Below are positions 40,315 through 49,140 of a stretch of DNA of 49,140 nucleotides, one piece after another; the stretch's first letter is position 1; every line of letters starts with the position of its first letter. This DNA is from Prochlorococcaceae cyanobacterium jk18x22bins.40. GTDB lineage: Bacteria; Cyanobacteriota; Cyanobacteriia; PCC-6307; Cyanobiaceae. Made by a program: the position numbers and the translations under genes. The stretch spans positions 1-49,140 of the forward strand of contig JAJDVL010000010.1 of NCBI GenBank assembly GCA_022826155.1, read 5' to 3'. Below the pieces are notes generated by a model, which saw only the letters and a list, made by a program, of their open reading frames with translations, was not told the DNA's origin and did no database searches.

Positions 40315-41058
40315 ATGGCCAATCAGCCGCTCACGGATCGCATCGCGCTGGTGACGGGCGCCAGCCGTGGCATCGGTCGGGCCGTGGCCTTGGAGTTGGC
40401 TGCCGCCGGGGCGGAGGTGGTGGTCAACTATGCCCGCTCCCCCGAGGCCGCCGCCCAGGTGGTGGCCGCTATCGAAGATCAGGGTGGACGGGCCTATGCC
40501 CTGCAGGCGGACGTGAGCAAGGAGGCGGAAGCAGACGGTTTGATCAGGGCGACGTTGGCCCGCAGCGGCAGCCTTGACGTGCTGGTGAACAATGCGGGGA
40601 TCACCCGTGACGGGTTGTTGATGCGCATGAAAACAGCGGATTGGCAGGCGGTGATTGATCTGAATCTTTCCGGGGTCTTCTATTGCACCCGCGCCGTGAC
40701 GCGACCCATGCTCAAACAAAAACGGGGCCGCATTGTGAACATCACCTCCGTGGTGGGGCTGATGGGCAATCCGGGACAAGCCAACTACGCAGCCGCCAAA
40801 GCCGGTGTCATCGGCCTGACCCGCACCAGCGCCAAGGAGTTGGCCAGCCGCGGCATCACGGTCAACGCCGTGGCCCCCGGCTTCATCGCCACGGACATGA
40901 CCAAGGGACTGGAAAGCGACGCCCTGCTGAAAACCATCCCCATGGGGTGCTTTGGACAACCCGAGCACGTGGCCGGGGCTGTACGCTTCCTTGCCGCCGA
41001 CCCCGCCGCGGCCTACATCACCGGCCAGGTGTTGCAAGTGGATGGCGGGATTTATTGA
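40315..41058 (+). CDS. fabG: 3-oxoacyl-ACP reductase
   Basis: The product has 247 residues of the short-chain dehydrogenase fold: TGASRGIGRAV binds NADPH, NNAGITRD follows, and the catalytic residues are Ser in ITSVVG, Tyr and Lys in YAAAK. It reduces 3-oxoacyl-ACP in fatty acid elongation. Its last 7 bases overlap the convergent hsdR gene. Confidence 0.94.
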   Translation: MANQPLTDRIALVTGASRGIGRAVALELAAAGAEVVVNYARSPEAAAQVVAAIEDQGGRAYALQADVSKEAEADGLIRATLARSGSLDVLVNNAGITRDGLLMRMKTADWQAVIDLNLSGVFYCTRAVTRPMLKQKRGRIVNITSVVGLMGNPGQANYAAAKAGVIGLTRTSAKELASRGITVNAVAPGFIATDMTKGLESDALLKTIPMGCFGQPEHVAGAVRFLAADPAAAYITGQVLQVDGGIY

Positions 41059-44000
41059 GTTGGTGGCGCCATGTGTTCCCCCAGGACCTCTGCCTGCTCA
41101 AGCACCGTGTTGATGGCTTTCTTCTCCGCATCGGGAGGGTAGTTGTAGCGTTTTAGAAGCGTCTTGATCTTCACCCGGAGTTTTGCCCTCACGTTCTCCT
41201 TGAACTGCCAGTCAATGGTGGCGTCCCGTCTGAGCATCTCCGCCAACTCCTTGGCCATGGTGGCCAGCACCTCGTCTTTCATGAGTTCCTGTGCTGACGG
41301 GTTGTCCGCCAAGGCGTCATAGAAGGACTGCTCGTCGGAGGCGAGACCCAGGGCGTCGCCACGTTCCTGCTCCTCACGGAACATCCTCGCCCTGGCAATG
41401 AGCTCCTCAATCACCTGGGCCGCCTCCACAGCACGGTTGGCGTATTTGTTCAGTGATGCCCTCAGCATTTCACTGAAACGTCTCTGCTTCACCAGGTTGG
41501 TCTTGAACCTGGTCTTCAGTGCATCTTTGATGAGCCGTTGCAGCAACTCCACCGCCAGGTGTTTCTGGGGAATTTTGCGCACCTCCGCCAGGAATTGGTC
41601 AGACAGGATGCTGATGTCGGGAGTTTTCAGGCCGGCAACCTGGAAAATATCCGTGACCCCCTCCGCCACCAGGGCCTCGGACAGCAGTTGACGGAGGGCA
41701 AAGTCGGGATCCTTGCTGGCGCCCTCTGGTCCCCCGACCCTCTTGATCAGCGGCGCCCTGACCGCCTGGAGAAATGCCGTCTCCTCGGCCAGCGCCATTG
41801 CTTCATCCGTGGCGCCACAGAGGGCAAATGCCCTGGTGAGCTTCAGCACCGTGTCACAGAACCTCTGCTTGCCGTCAGGAATCCCCAGGATGTGGTCCAG
41901 ACAGTGGGGGATCAGCTCCAGCGCCTTGCCCCGCTCCCTGAAGCCGCGCCAGTCCACGGGATGGAGGATGTCCCTGGCGATCTGGAGTTGCTCCTTGAGA
42001 ACCCGGACCGTCTCGCCGACATCAAGGGTGGGTTTGCCTTTGCCCTGGGCTGCCGTATAGGTGGCCAGCGCCGCCTTCAGTTGCGGGGCAATGCCGATGT
42101 AATCCACCACCAGCCCCCCTGGCTTGTCCTTGAAAACCCTGTTGACCCGGGCGATGGCCTGGGCAAGGTTGGCCCCCTTCATGGGTTTGTCCACGTACAG
42201 GGTGGCCATGGAGGGAGCGTCGAATCCCGTTAACCACATGTCCCGCACCACCACCATCCTGAGGGGATCAGCAGGATCCTTGAACCGCTTCTCCAAAGCC
42301 TTCTTCTGTTGCTGGTTGGTGTGGTGGGGCTGCAGGTGTGCTGCATCGGACGGCCATGACGTCATCACCGCCTTGACGGCGCCTTTCATGGGGTCGGGGT
42401 CATGCCAATGGGGGCGCAGGGCAACGATGGCGTCATAGAGGCGGGCGCAAATGTCCCGACCCATGGCCACCACCATGGCCTTGCCGGGCTGGGTCTTGCA
42501 ACGTTGCTCGTAGTGGGCCACCAAGTCCGCTGCCACCTGTCGCAAGCGGGGTTCGGCGCCCACGATGGCCGCAAGTGCCGCCCACCTGCTCTTGGCCCGT
42601 TCGGCGGCGGGGATGTGGTCCTCGTCATCGAAGAGCTCGTCCACCTTCTCGTCCACCGTGGGCAAAGCCCCCTCCTTGAGGGCCAGTTTCGCCAGGCGGG
42701 ACTCGTAGTAGATGGGGACCGTGGCGCCGTCTTCCACTGCCTGCTGGATGTCGTAGATGGAGACATGGTTCCCAAAGACCGCCTGGGTGTCCCGGTCATC
42801 CTGGGAGATGGGCGTTCCCGTGAAAGCAACGAACGTTGCCTTGGGCAGGGCATCCCGTAGCGCCCTTGCCAGACCGTATTTGATCTCGCCTGTTCTCATA
42901 TTGAGGCGACCCTTGAACCCGTATTGGGTGCGGTGGGCCTCATCACAGATCACCACAATGTTGTGACGGTTACTCAGGGTGGGGAAACGGTCTTCGCCAA
43001 GTTCAGGGGCAAACTTCTGGATCGTGGTGAAGATGATGCCGCCACTGGGGCGGTGGGCGAGCAGCTCCCGTAGCGTCTCCCTGGATTCCGCCTGTTGTGG
43101 TTGCTCCGGCAGCAGATCCCCCACGCCAGCAAAAACGCCGAACAACTGCCCATCCAGATCCTGGCGGTCGGTGACCATCACCAGGGTGGGGTTCTCCAGG
43201 CGCGGATCCCTGAGCAACCTGCCCGCCAGACAGGCCATCTCGATGCTCTTGCCCGCACCCTGGGTGTGCCAGACCACACCACCCTTCCTGTCACCCTCAG
43301 GTTTGCTCGCCGCCACCACCCGCTCCACCGCTGCCCGCACGGCATGGAACTGGTGGTAGGCGGCGATTTTCTTGGTCACCTGCCCGTCCTCCTCAAAGAG
43401 GCAGAAGGAACGGATGAACTCCAGCAATCGCCCCTGGTGGAAGAGGCCACGGATCAGGGTCTCCAGTTCCCGGTGTTTGCCCAATGGGTCCAGGTTGTGG
43501 GCCGTCTCGATCAGCCGCCACTGCTGGAACCGTTCCCGCGCTGCACTCAGGGAACCCACCCGGGCCTGGATGCCGTCGCTGATCACCAGCAGCACGTTGG
43601 CGGTGAACAGGTGGGGGACGTCGTTCTTATAGGTTTGGAGTTGATTGAACGCCGCCCAGATGTCTGCCTGCTCATCGGCGGGATTCTTCAGTTCCATCAC
43701 CGCGATGGGTAAGCCGTTGATATAGACCACCACGTCAGGGCGGCGGTTATGGTGATTCCCCTGAACGGCCAACTGGTTCACCACCAGCCAGTCATTGGCG
43801 GCAGGGTGGTCAAAGTCCACCACCTTGAGACGGGTGCCCACCTCCTGCTTCCCGTCCATGTACCTGGTGGGCAGTCCCGTGGTCATCCAGCGGTGAAGCT
43901 GGCGGTTGGAGGGCAGCAGCCCTGACACAGTTGGACGTGCCAGTTGTCGCACTGCCGACGCGATGGTTGCCGCTGGCGGCTGGGAGTTGATGCGTGCTAA

Positions 44001-48202: not shown

Positions 48203-48517
48203 CTACCCACCCCCATCGCTTGGGCAATACAGGTTGCCTGCATCACTGGGTATGGGAACGGCAGCCCATCCCTTGGTTCCATGTGGGGGCAGCGGCGCCA
48301 GGGGGCATCGTGAATCAGAGAGAGTTGGCAACTCAGCAGAGAATAGCAGAGGAGGGACATGGAACAAGGGGCCATAAAGGCTGTGTTGGTCCATCAGGAC
48401 GGGGGATCCGGTCTGCGCGGCCAGGACCATCCCGAGCGTGTGCCCTTGCTCAGCGGGCGGAGGCGGTCTATCAAAGCGGGGCTCCACCCTTTGCACCGTA
48501 GCTTTCAACGAGGGCAG
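48203..48517. other. Gap between the Fic gene and the AAA_21 gene
   Basis: About 315 bases without a recognisable gene on either strand. Short open frames present are not supported by motifs or ribosome-binding sites. The gap may hold the promoter for the downstream AAA_21/DUF4276 pair. Confidence 0.4.
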
Positions 48518-49140
48518 TTACTCACCGGAAGGCGTCAACAGGTTCATGGTGAGGCGGACCATCAAGTCCTTGTTGGTGGGCATACTCTCGGCGATCAACA
48601 GGGTGAGCGCCGTCAATGCACGGGGATCGAGCCGGTGCGGGATGTTCTCCTGGGTGAGGTAGAGCAGGAACAGGAGTGCCCCGATGCGCTTGTTGCCGTC
48701 GCTGAAGGGGTGATCCTTGACGAGGAAATACAGCAGGTGCGCCGCCTTTGCCTCACGGCTGCGGTACACCGGCTCGCCGAACATGGTTTGCTCAATGTTG
48801 CCGAGAATCGCGGCCAGCCCATCGCCCCGCGGATTGCCAAACAGCGCCGTAGCCTCGCCTCTGGCGGCAAGGTCACGTTTCAGGGTGGCGATTGCGTCGA
48901 GGGCCTGATTGAGGTCAATGGCACTGGTGGACGGTTGAGCGTCAGGGGGTGTCTCCAGTCGATCCTCGTCGTATTGCAGCAGCAGGCGCCAAGTGTCGTC
49001 GTAGCCGGAGATCAACTCAAGGATCGCCTTTCCGGTGTCGTCCACCAGCGCTTGGCTGTGCAGCGTCCGGGCCAGAAGATCAAGCGTCTGGCGCGCCTCG
49101 TCCAAACCGCGTTCAGCCAGCCGCCGCTCGTTCAGTGTGT
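48518..49140 (-). CDS. Fic-domain protein, C-terminal part (RhuM/Fic type)
   Basis: The frame is open to the window edge, so the start is outside. The visible 206 residues end with a Fic core: HPFSDGNKRIGALLFL holds the HxFxDGNK motif, with GEPVYRSREAKAAHLLYFLV before it. The helical part upstream (ALVDDTGKAILELISGYD) resembles the middle of RhuM/Fic fusion proteins. Fic domains modify proteins with AMP or phosphate groups; the K in DGNK suggests a Doc-like enzyme. A toxin or effector role is inferred. Confidence 0.75.
   Translation of the reverse strand, partial: TLNERRLAERGLDEARQTLDLLARTLHSQALVDDTGKAILELISGYDDTWRLLLQYDEDRLETPPDAQPSTSAIDLNQALDAIATLKRDLAARGEATALFGNPRGDGLAAILGNIEQTMFGEPVYRSREAKAAHLLYFLVKDHPFSDGNKRIGALLFLLYLTQENIPHRLDPRALTALTLLIAESMPTNKDLMVRLTMNLLTPSGE

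Follow-up and report, generated by a model that had tools for sequence, protein, structure and literature searches.

What are the restriction gene hsdR, two ATPase/TOPRIM-like gene pairs, and a Fic-domain gene doing packed together on one strand beside the core gene fabG in a cyanobacterium, and do they belong together? We analyzed this locus in Prochlorococcaceae cyanobacterium jk18x22bins.40 (assembly GCA_022826155.1; genome G000 below), using all of contig JAJDVL010000010.1 (49,140 nt, the window; C26 in our contig numbering). The organism is related to the sponge symbiont Synechococcus spongiarum, and restriction-modification (R-M) and toxin-antitoxin genes are reported to be enriched in sponge symbionts (PMC5649159). 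We consider it probable that these genes make up the downstream end of a single type I R-M operon, approximately 20 kb long and situated between guaA and fabG. Twelve extra open reading frames (ORFs) have probably accumulated between its hsdS and hsdR genes; among them are two separate ATPase/TOPRIM pairs, for which a role as independent backup nucleases is predicted.

The ORF list and profile searches placed hsdR, both pairs, and the Fic-domain gene on the minus strand, as the original prediction from the sequence had stated. From 49140 to 41052 the order of transcription is the C-terminal half of Fic, ATPase 1, DUF4276, ATPase 2, DUF3226, and hsdR. The 7-base overlap between hsdR and fabG was also borne out and is tail-to-tail (hsdR stop at 41052, fabG stop at 41058). 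HsdR has the nuclease, SF2 motor, and C-terminal domains of a type I subunit (Pfam, PADLOC). The Fic-domain protein was present on the expected strand, and its translation includes HPFSDGNKR, presumably the Fic active-site motif, but the gene is incomplete. The window is an entire contig whose end falls inside this gene; thus, the N-terminal half of Fic and the genes upstream of it lie outside the window.

The last 141 bases of a second contig, C31, were identical to the reverse complement of the window end. A plain 141-base repeat was rejected as the cause because only these two ends match genome-wide. The 5′ part of the Fic gene is presumably the RhuM half on C31 (22085-22628); the RhuM and Fic halves, on two contigs in G000, form a single ORF in genomes G149 and G008. 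C31 also carries guaA, hsdM (MTase_I, 611 bits), a PF08780 HEPN-like gene, and a nucleotidyltransferase-HsdS fusion (Specificity_I, 320 bits), together with a 236-aa ORF, two PDC-M48B-like ORFs without a Pfam match, a 95-aa ORF, and genes for a Peptidase_M78 protein, a DUF4411 protein, and a Schlafen-AlbA protein with a RecG-C-like ATPase domain. Methylase_S matches in G000 occurred only on C31 and C16. The latter was set aside as the source of the HsdM and HsdS partners since it has its own hsdM, hsdS, and hsdR, whereas the hsdM and hsdS of C31 are not tied to another hsdR. Because C31 shares the contig end and carries guaA, hsdM, and hsdS, the "defence island" of the original prediction is indeed a cluster of defense genes, but most likely one type I R-M operon with hsdM and hsdS on C31 and not a loose island. 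If the two contigs join, coordinate arithmetic gives an operon of approximately 20.1 kb from hsdM to hsdR; the stretch from hsdS to hsdR would make up approximately 12.0 kb of this and contain the twelve cargo ORFs.

Some observations weigh against this reading. We infer that C31 and C26 are neighbors in the chromosome; in G000, hsdM and hsdS are linked to hsdR only by the 141-base identical end, and a strain fork may have produced that end. Other R-like sequences in G000 were a weak HSDR_N match on C4 and, on C50, an hsdR-like piece containing one stop; the latter leaves some doubt about the pairing of the C31 HsdM and HsdS with the HsdR of the window. The modules are separated by spacers of 315 and 366 bp. 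Finally, that pair 2 works without pair 1 would follow from one congener, G091. An ordinary defense island, with unrelated genes dropped beside fabG and without operon relation to the C31 system, would accommodate the spacers, the inferred join, and an hsdR that lacks hsdM and hsdS in the window alone. It is decidedly unlikely, given the identical contig ends, the cargo-free M-S-R operons of the same hsdR lineage in other genomes, and two relatives in particular: G149, in which hsdM, hsdS, and hsdR lie on one contig, and G091, in which guaA is followed by hsdM and then hsdS, several of the same cargo genes, and RhuM-Fic.

The edges of the proposed operon could be followed in relatives. Among ten genomes of the genus, guaA was found in seven and fabG in eight. 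The search for empty sites suggested in the original prediction was successful: G008 has guaA and fabG as convergent neighbors, with 24 bp between the stop codons. As in G000, guaA is followed by the start of hsdM in G091 (long hsdM), G063 (remnant), and G133 (contig end follows). The end of hsdR was found at fabG in G063 and G091, and G133 retains approximately 40 bases of this end, plus another piece of hsdR 2.5 kb farther along. Neither edge was present in G149 and G114, and G152 has no hsdR at fabG. Because these edges are common to sister genomes and are partly remnants, the insertion is probably older than the divergence of several lineages and has decayed in some of them. In G063, one contig holds both edges at a distance of approximately 29 kb, and guaA and fabG point the same way; this implies a rearrangement.

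Such decay could mean that the set is a relic, being lost and no longer a working defense. The hsdR remnants at or near fabG in G063, G091, and G133 and the hsdM remnant at guaA in G063 are in keeping with this, as are changed or cut members in G149 (DUF3226) and G091 (Fic, DUF4276). However, the listed frames of G000 are open. The ratio of nonsynonymous (dN) to synonymous (dS) divergence against relatives was 0.10-0.31 for the island genes and 0.06-0.17 for the two core genes, as an average over the whole divergence in which a recent loss of constraint is invisible. A relic is therefore highly improbable. Both dN and dS were estimated by the Nei-Gojobori method, leaving out DUF3226 of G149 (frame change) and ATPase 2 of G091 (split over contigs) and using the last 155 codons of guaA.

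The interval between hsdS and hsdR varied widely among relatives. Matches to hsdR were found in 44 of 151 family genomes (E 0.001 or better), and eleven genomes besides G000 had long copies (69-92% identity); in the gene maps of relatives, ORFs shorter than 90 aa or mostly overlapped by a longer ORF were left out. In G149, the genes from hsdM to hsdR share a strand and a contig, with 13 cargo ORFs and an hsdS-hsdR interval of 18.3 kb. Its cargo includes Vsr, a C5 cytosine methylase, a GHKL-ATPase protein with HEF_HK, a receiver-domain protein, M78, DUF4411, a Hachiman-like pair (PDC-M23A/B, the large one also scoring 210 bits to HamB), RhuM-Fic, and both ATPase pairs. The Hachiman-like helicase pair and the Dcm/Vsr/GHKL-ATPase set within this type I operon are observations in their own right (L106, L081; G149:C19). 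No cargo separates S and R in G126, G084, and G028, which have the same hsdR lineage. RhuM-Fic lies behind two S-like ORFs in G044, also with this lineage, and the cargo of G018 is an AlbA/RecG-like ATPase, with hsdR broken over contigs. The remaining arrangements were M, HEPN, nucleotidyltransferase-S, M, S, and an hsdR in two ORFs (G049); S, S, and R at a contig start (G080); and R only (G059). The order AAA1-DUF4276-AAA2-DUF3226-hsdR was common to G000, G149, and G008, at different sites, and G008 keeps the tail order. The expectation that the same set would co-occur in relatives had a mixed outcome: the six-gene tail occurred in three of the ten genus genomes (G000 included), and ATPase 2 occurred in none of 390 other family genomes.

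One tentative extension, possible but doubtful, is that the hsdS-hsdR interval of this type I lineage would act as a standing site of gene acquisition, loading, shedding, and swapping whole defense modules, with OLD/TOPRIM pairs tuned to fire when phage proteins disable the R-M complex. The modules concerned are the PDC-M48B-like pair, the M78-peptidase/DUF4411 pair, the Schlafen-like ATPase, the Hachiman-like helicase pair, the Dcm/Vsr/GHKL-ATPase set, RhuM-Fic, and the two OLD-ABC/TOPRIM pairs.

The close packing of the two pairs had been explained in the original prediction either by joint action or by stacking through successive transfer. In a sample of 400 family genomes (the same for both ATPases by its tallies, with up to four candidates scored per genome), 17 had a match to ATPase 1 at E 1e-20, and in ten of these the identity was at least 70% across almost the full protein. 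ATPase 2 turned up in five, all belonging to the genus of G000 (G000, G008, G149, G152, and G091). Both pairs stood side by side in three of the ten genomes with a close ATPase 1 (G000, G149, and G008). Six had no ATPase 2, either in the search or beside ATPase 1 (G049, G170, G077, G111, G291, and G005), and G152, with the pairs at the ends of two nonoverlapping contigs, cannot be judged. On the same contig, hsdR then followed in eight of the ten (not seen in G049 and G152), and five of these eight were of an approximately 50% identical lineage or a short piece (G005, G170, G077, and G291; G111, 33% over 121 residues). Among 80 wider collection loci with ATPase 1 (80 of 87 relatives, some cut short, 44 of at least 15 kb, and overlapping weaker matches dropped), DUF4276 was present in 72, any hsd gene in eight, and ATPase 2 in two (G149 and G008), so that pair 1 occurred without pair 2 in 78. 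G091 has DUF3226 and an ATPase 2 in two pieces on two contigs, with no ATPase 1 at E 1e-20; its Fic frame (L222:933-1700, G091:C104) continues into the final 17 DUF4276 residues, the pattern expected after a deletion.

No mutual dependence of the pairs was seen in these data, and joint action was not supported. As judged from gene occurrence, pair 1 is well shown to be a separable module, and pair 2 is weakly indicated to be one. Because pair 1 is found without pair 2, stacked modules that later travel together are favored. That the pairs form one four-gene machine, or a joint guard of the R-M complex, and stand side by side for this reason is unlikely. The conserved gene order at different sites in three genomes would be expected of such a machine, as would the presence of ATPase 1 in all ATPase 2 genomes except G091, and both spacers of G000 contain the same 9-mer, CCTCTGCTA. 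This word occurs nowhere else in the window (two matches, expected 0.15), once in each spacer before an ATPase gene (46226-46234 and 48344-48352), and it was noticed first and tested afterwards (post hoc). Opposed to a four-gene machine are the occurrence of pair 1 without pair 2 in six of the ten close genomes and 78 of the 80 wider loci, the state of G091, and the unequal silent-site divergence of neighboring genes (dS of 1.5 for ATPase 2 and 0.7-0.8 for ATPase 1). The 9-mer is a possible candidate for a shared promoter element, and the 366-bp spacer may have its own promoter; a scan for internal promoters with the sigma-70 consensus was negative, including in the 366-bp spacer.

When G000 was compared with G149 and G008, dS was 0.70 and 0.94 for hsdR, 0.77 and 0.71 for ATPase 1, 0.72 and 0.62 for DUF4276, 1.50 and 1.51 for ATPase 2 (near saturation), 0.90 and 0.83 for Fic, and 0.70 for DUF3226 (G008), whereas it was 0.33 and 0.24 for fabG. 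Silent sites of the island genes were approximately 2-times to 6-times more diverged than those of fabG, consistent with G149 and G008 having acquired or exchanged the island genes separately. Together with the frequent occurrence of pair 1 without pair 2, this agrees with stacking by successive transfer. Between G000 and G091, dS was 0.16 for hsdR, 0.56 for DUF3226, 0.40 for fabG, and 0.10 for the end of guaA. In the same two genomes, the middle of DUF3226 (window 44344-44637) has two 150-column windows with 64-74% DNA identity; the ATPase 2 and hsdR flanks are mostly 88-98% identical, with dips to 81% and 87% in hsdR and an edge window of 51%. Local allele exchange in this presumed effector could produce such a pattern.

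A phage or plasmid source was rejected, as no near source was found among the phage and plasmid matches of ATPase 1 or the plasmid matches of ATPase 2. ATPase 1 matched 10 of 72,556 plasmid records at E 1e-60 (best 73%, Meiothermus) and one of 50,697 phage records at E 1e-30 (33%). For ATPase 2, matches at E 1e-30 came from 110 plasmid records (Klebsiella 106, Escherichia 3, and Raoultella 1), and the ten listed were approximately 26% identical. Relatives of ATPase 1 with 80-82% identity occurred in Delta-, Gamma-, and Alphaproteobacteria records (L136, L137, L138, and L139). They are closer than the family genomes listed outside the genus (78% at most), which suggests exchange of ATPase 1 across phyla.

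The small partners had been described as TOPRIM-like, and this stood by predicted fold. The C-terminal domain of the OLD nuclease was the top Foldseek match of both predicted folds; in a second look, OLD TOPRIM was top for DUF4276 and second for DUF3226, behind PH0156. Scores were moderate (E 4e-4 to 9e-4; template-modeling score 0.4-0.6). Sequence-profile searches for solved relatives of the two proteins gave nothing at E < 0.1. E17 and D73 were invariant in 47 aligned DUF3226 sequences (46 homologs chosen from 120 listed, of 250 found), as was D70 in 45 aligned DUF4276 sequences (44 from 120 listed, of 5,549 found). On the basis of fold and conserved acidic residues, both proteins are predicted to be TOPRIM nucleases.

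Both ATPases carry AAA_15/AAA_21 domains (Pfam). PtuA and an OLD-family nuclease were the best solved relatives of ATPase 1 by sequence, and OLD and PtuA chains were among the best solved relatives of the two proteins, as expected of OLD/RecF-like ATPases, with a best E-value of only 0.0011 for ATPase 2. In PADLOC, the adjacent genes of pair 1 had HEC-01A and HEC-01B (272 bits) as best matches, and pair 2 matched PDC-M38A and PDC-M38B (52 bits), with ATPase 2 also close to AbiLi (Table 1). HEC denotes an Hma-embedded candidate. AbiLii was not among the two families listed for DUF3226. A PARIS label was rejected (AriA at 102 and 83 bits vs. 528 for HEC-01A and 194 for PDC-M38A, with no AriB among the 12 and two families listed for the partners), and so was an RloB label, since neither small partner matched the RloB model in Pfam.

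By analogy with OLD and PARIS relatives, the operon might function in layers. HsdMSR would be the first line of defense. Each ATPase would hold its TOPRIM partner or act as a sensor, and on a phage-derived signal it would free or activate that partner, which would then cut nucleic acid and stop the infection. The two pairs would thereby be backup nucleases for when restriction fails. It is probable that the modules arrived in the hsdS-hsdR interval successively and that the assembled set later spread within the genus.

Embedding of defense genes between hsdS and hsdR is already in print (PMC12255303, PMC11411939). PMC12255303 describes DarTG2, and in four genomes an ATPase gene pair, between hsdS and hsdR, and calls this interval a potential recombination hotspot; PMC11411939 describes TgvAB within a type I operon. 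Both systems resemble the present one in having accessory defense genes inside a type I operon. They differ in having one two-gene module, compared with twelve ORFs of several kinds here (approximately 12 kb if the contigs join) and thirteen in G149 (18.3 kb). Pairs of OLD-ABC and TOPRIM genes are described as a backup layer in BREX operons (PMC12839542). Unlike those pairs and PARIS (AriA/AriB), the genes studied here have HEC-01 and PDC-M38 as best labels and form two different pairs in tandem. PrrC in EcoprrI is another accessory gene inside a type I locus (PMC12707154). PrrC and RloC models were not among the best 25 matches listed for either ATPase. In Campylobacter, rlo and rhuM genes lie inside hsd loci, and a RhuM domain is present here too. 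HEC-01 and PDC-M38 are candidate systems of PADLOC-DB whose profiles match pair 1 and pair 2; both are here inside a type I operon. Our literature search found no paper naming DUF4276 or DUF3226. As far as that search shows, the scale and the mix are new, as are two different ATPase/TOPRIM pairs in tandem.

The comparison indicates how far the embedding in a restriction operon can extend: depending on the sister lineage, the same interval of a three-gene operon is free of cargo or contains one or a dozen extra genes. Within one family and genus, one can see an empty site, remnants, and the apparent loss and exchange of modules. Two questions become testable: whether embedded ATPase/TOPRIM pairs guard the R-M enzyme of their own operon and whether genes are truly acquired preferentially at the hsdS-hsdR interval. 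The locus also calls for caution, since one contig can hide the R-M half of such an operon.

Table 1. Features of the fabG end of the proposed operon, with window coordinates.
Feature	Position	Strand	Remarks
fabG	40315..41058	+	Core gene bounding the insert, outside it; Pfam adh_short, E 1.3e-66
hsdR, type I restriction subunit, 1036 aa, last gene of the operon	41052..44162	-	HSDR_N, SWI2_SNF2, T1RH-like_C; PADLOC REase_I, 1112 bits
DUF3226 protein, predicted stand-alone TOPRIM nuclease (module 2)	44218..44850	-	
ATPase 2 (module 2), 374 aa, 3 bases before DUF3226	44854..45978	-	AAA_15/AAA_21; PDC-M38A, 193.5 bits; AbiLi, 187.6 bits
366-bp spacer before module 2	45979..46344	-	Holds CCTCTGCTA at 46226-46234
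DUF4276 protein, predicted stand-alone TOPRIM nuclease (module 1)	46345..46962	-	
ATPase 1 (module 1), 412 aa, one base before DUF4276	46964..48202	-	AAA_21, E 1.3e-29; HEC-01A, 527.6 bits
315-bp spacer before module 1	48203..48517	-	Holds CCTCTGCTA at 48344-48352
Fic half (C-terminal) of a presumed RhuM-Fic protein	48518..49140	-	Fic, E 1.4e-10; PDC-S23

The start of ATPase 2 was set from the alignment of homologs, instead of the upstream TTG in the ORF list. No RNA family reached its gathering score in 40900-49140, and repeats in this region were short or imperfect matches only. G+C content was 51-57% in the three 1,500-base windows covering 43501-48000 vs. 58.5-68% in the others.

The HsdS of C31 (L079:3477-5467, G000:C31) has an N-terminal nucleotidyltransferase (Polbeta) domain, and its gene has a 4-base overlap with the PF08780 HEPN-like gene, as if a HEPN/MNT pair were fused to the specificity subunit. 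The same domain pair was found in G149 and G049, with a 66% homolog in G091, and a nucleotidyltransferase-HsdS fusion appeared in none of the paper titles listed (12 of 18) in a literature search on HEPN, MNT, and HsdS. Between hsdM and the HEPN-like gene lie two near-identical short antisense ORFs (L079:2530-2787 and 2963-3253), which a small ORF near fabG (window 39628-39897) resembles by eye.

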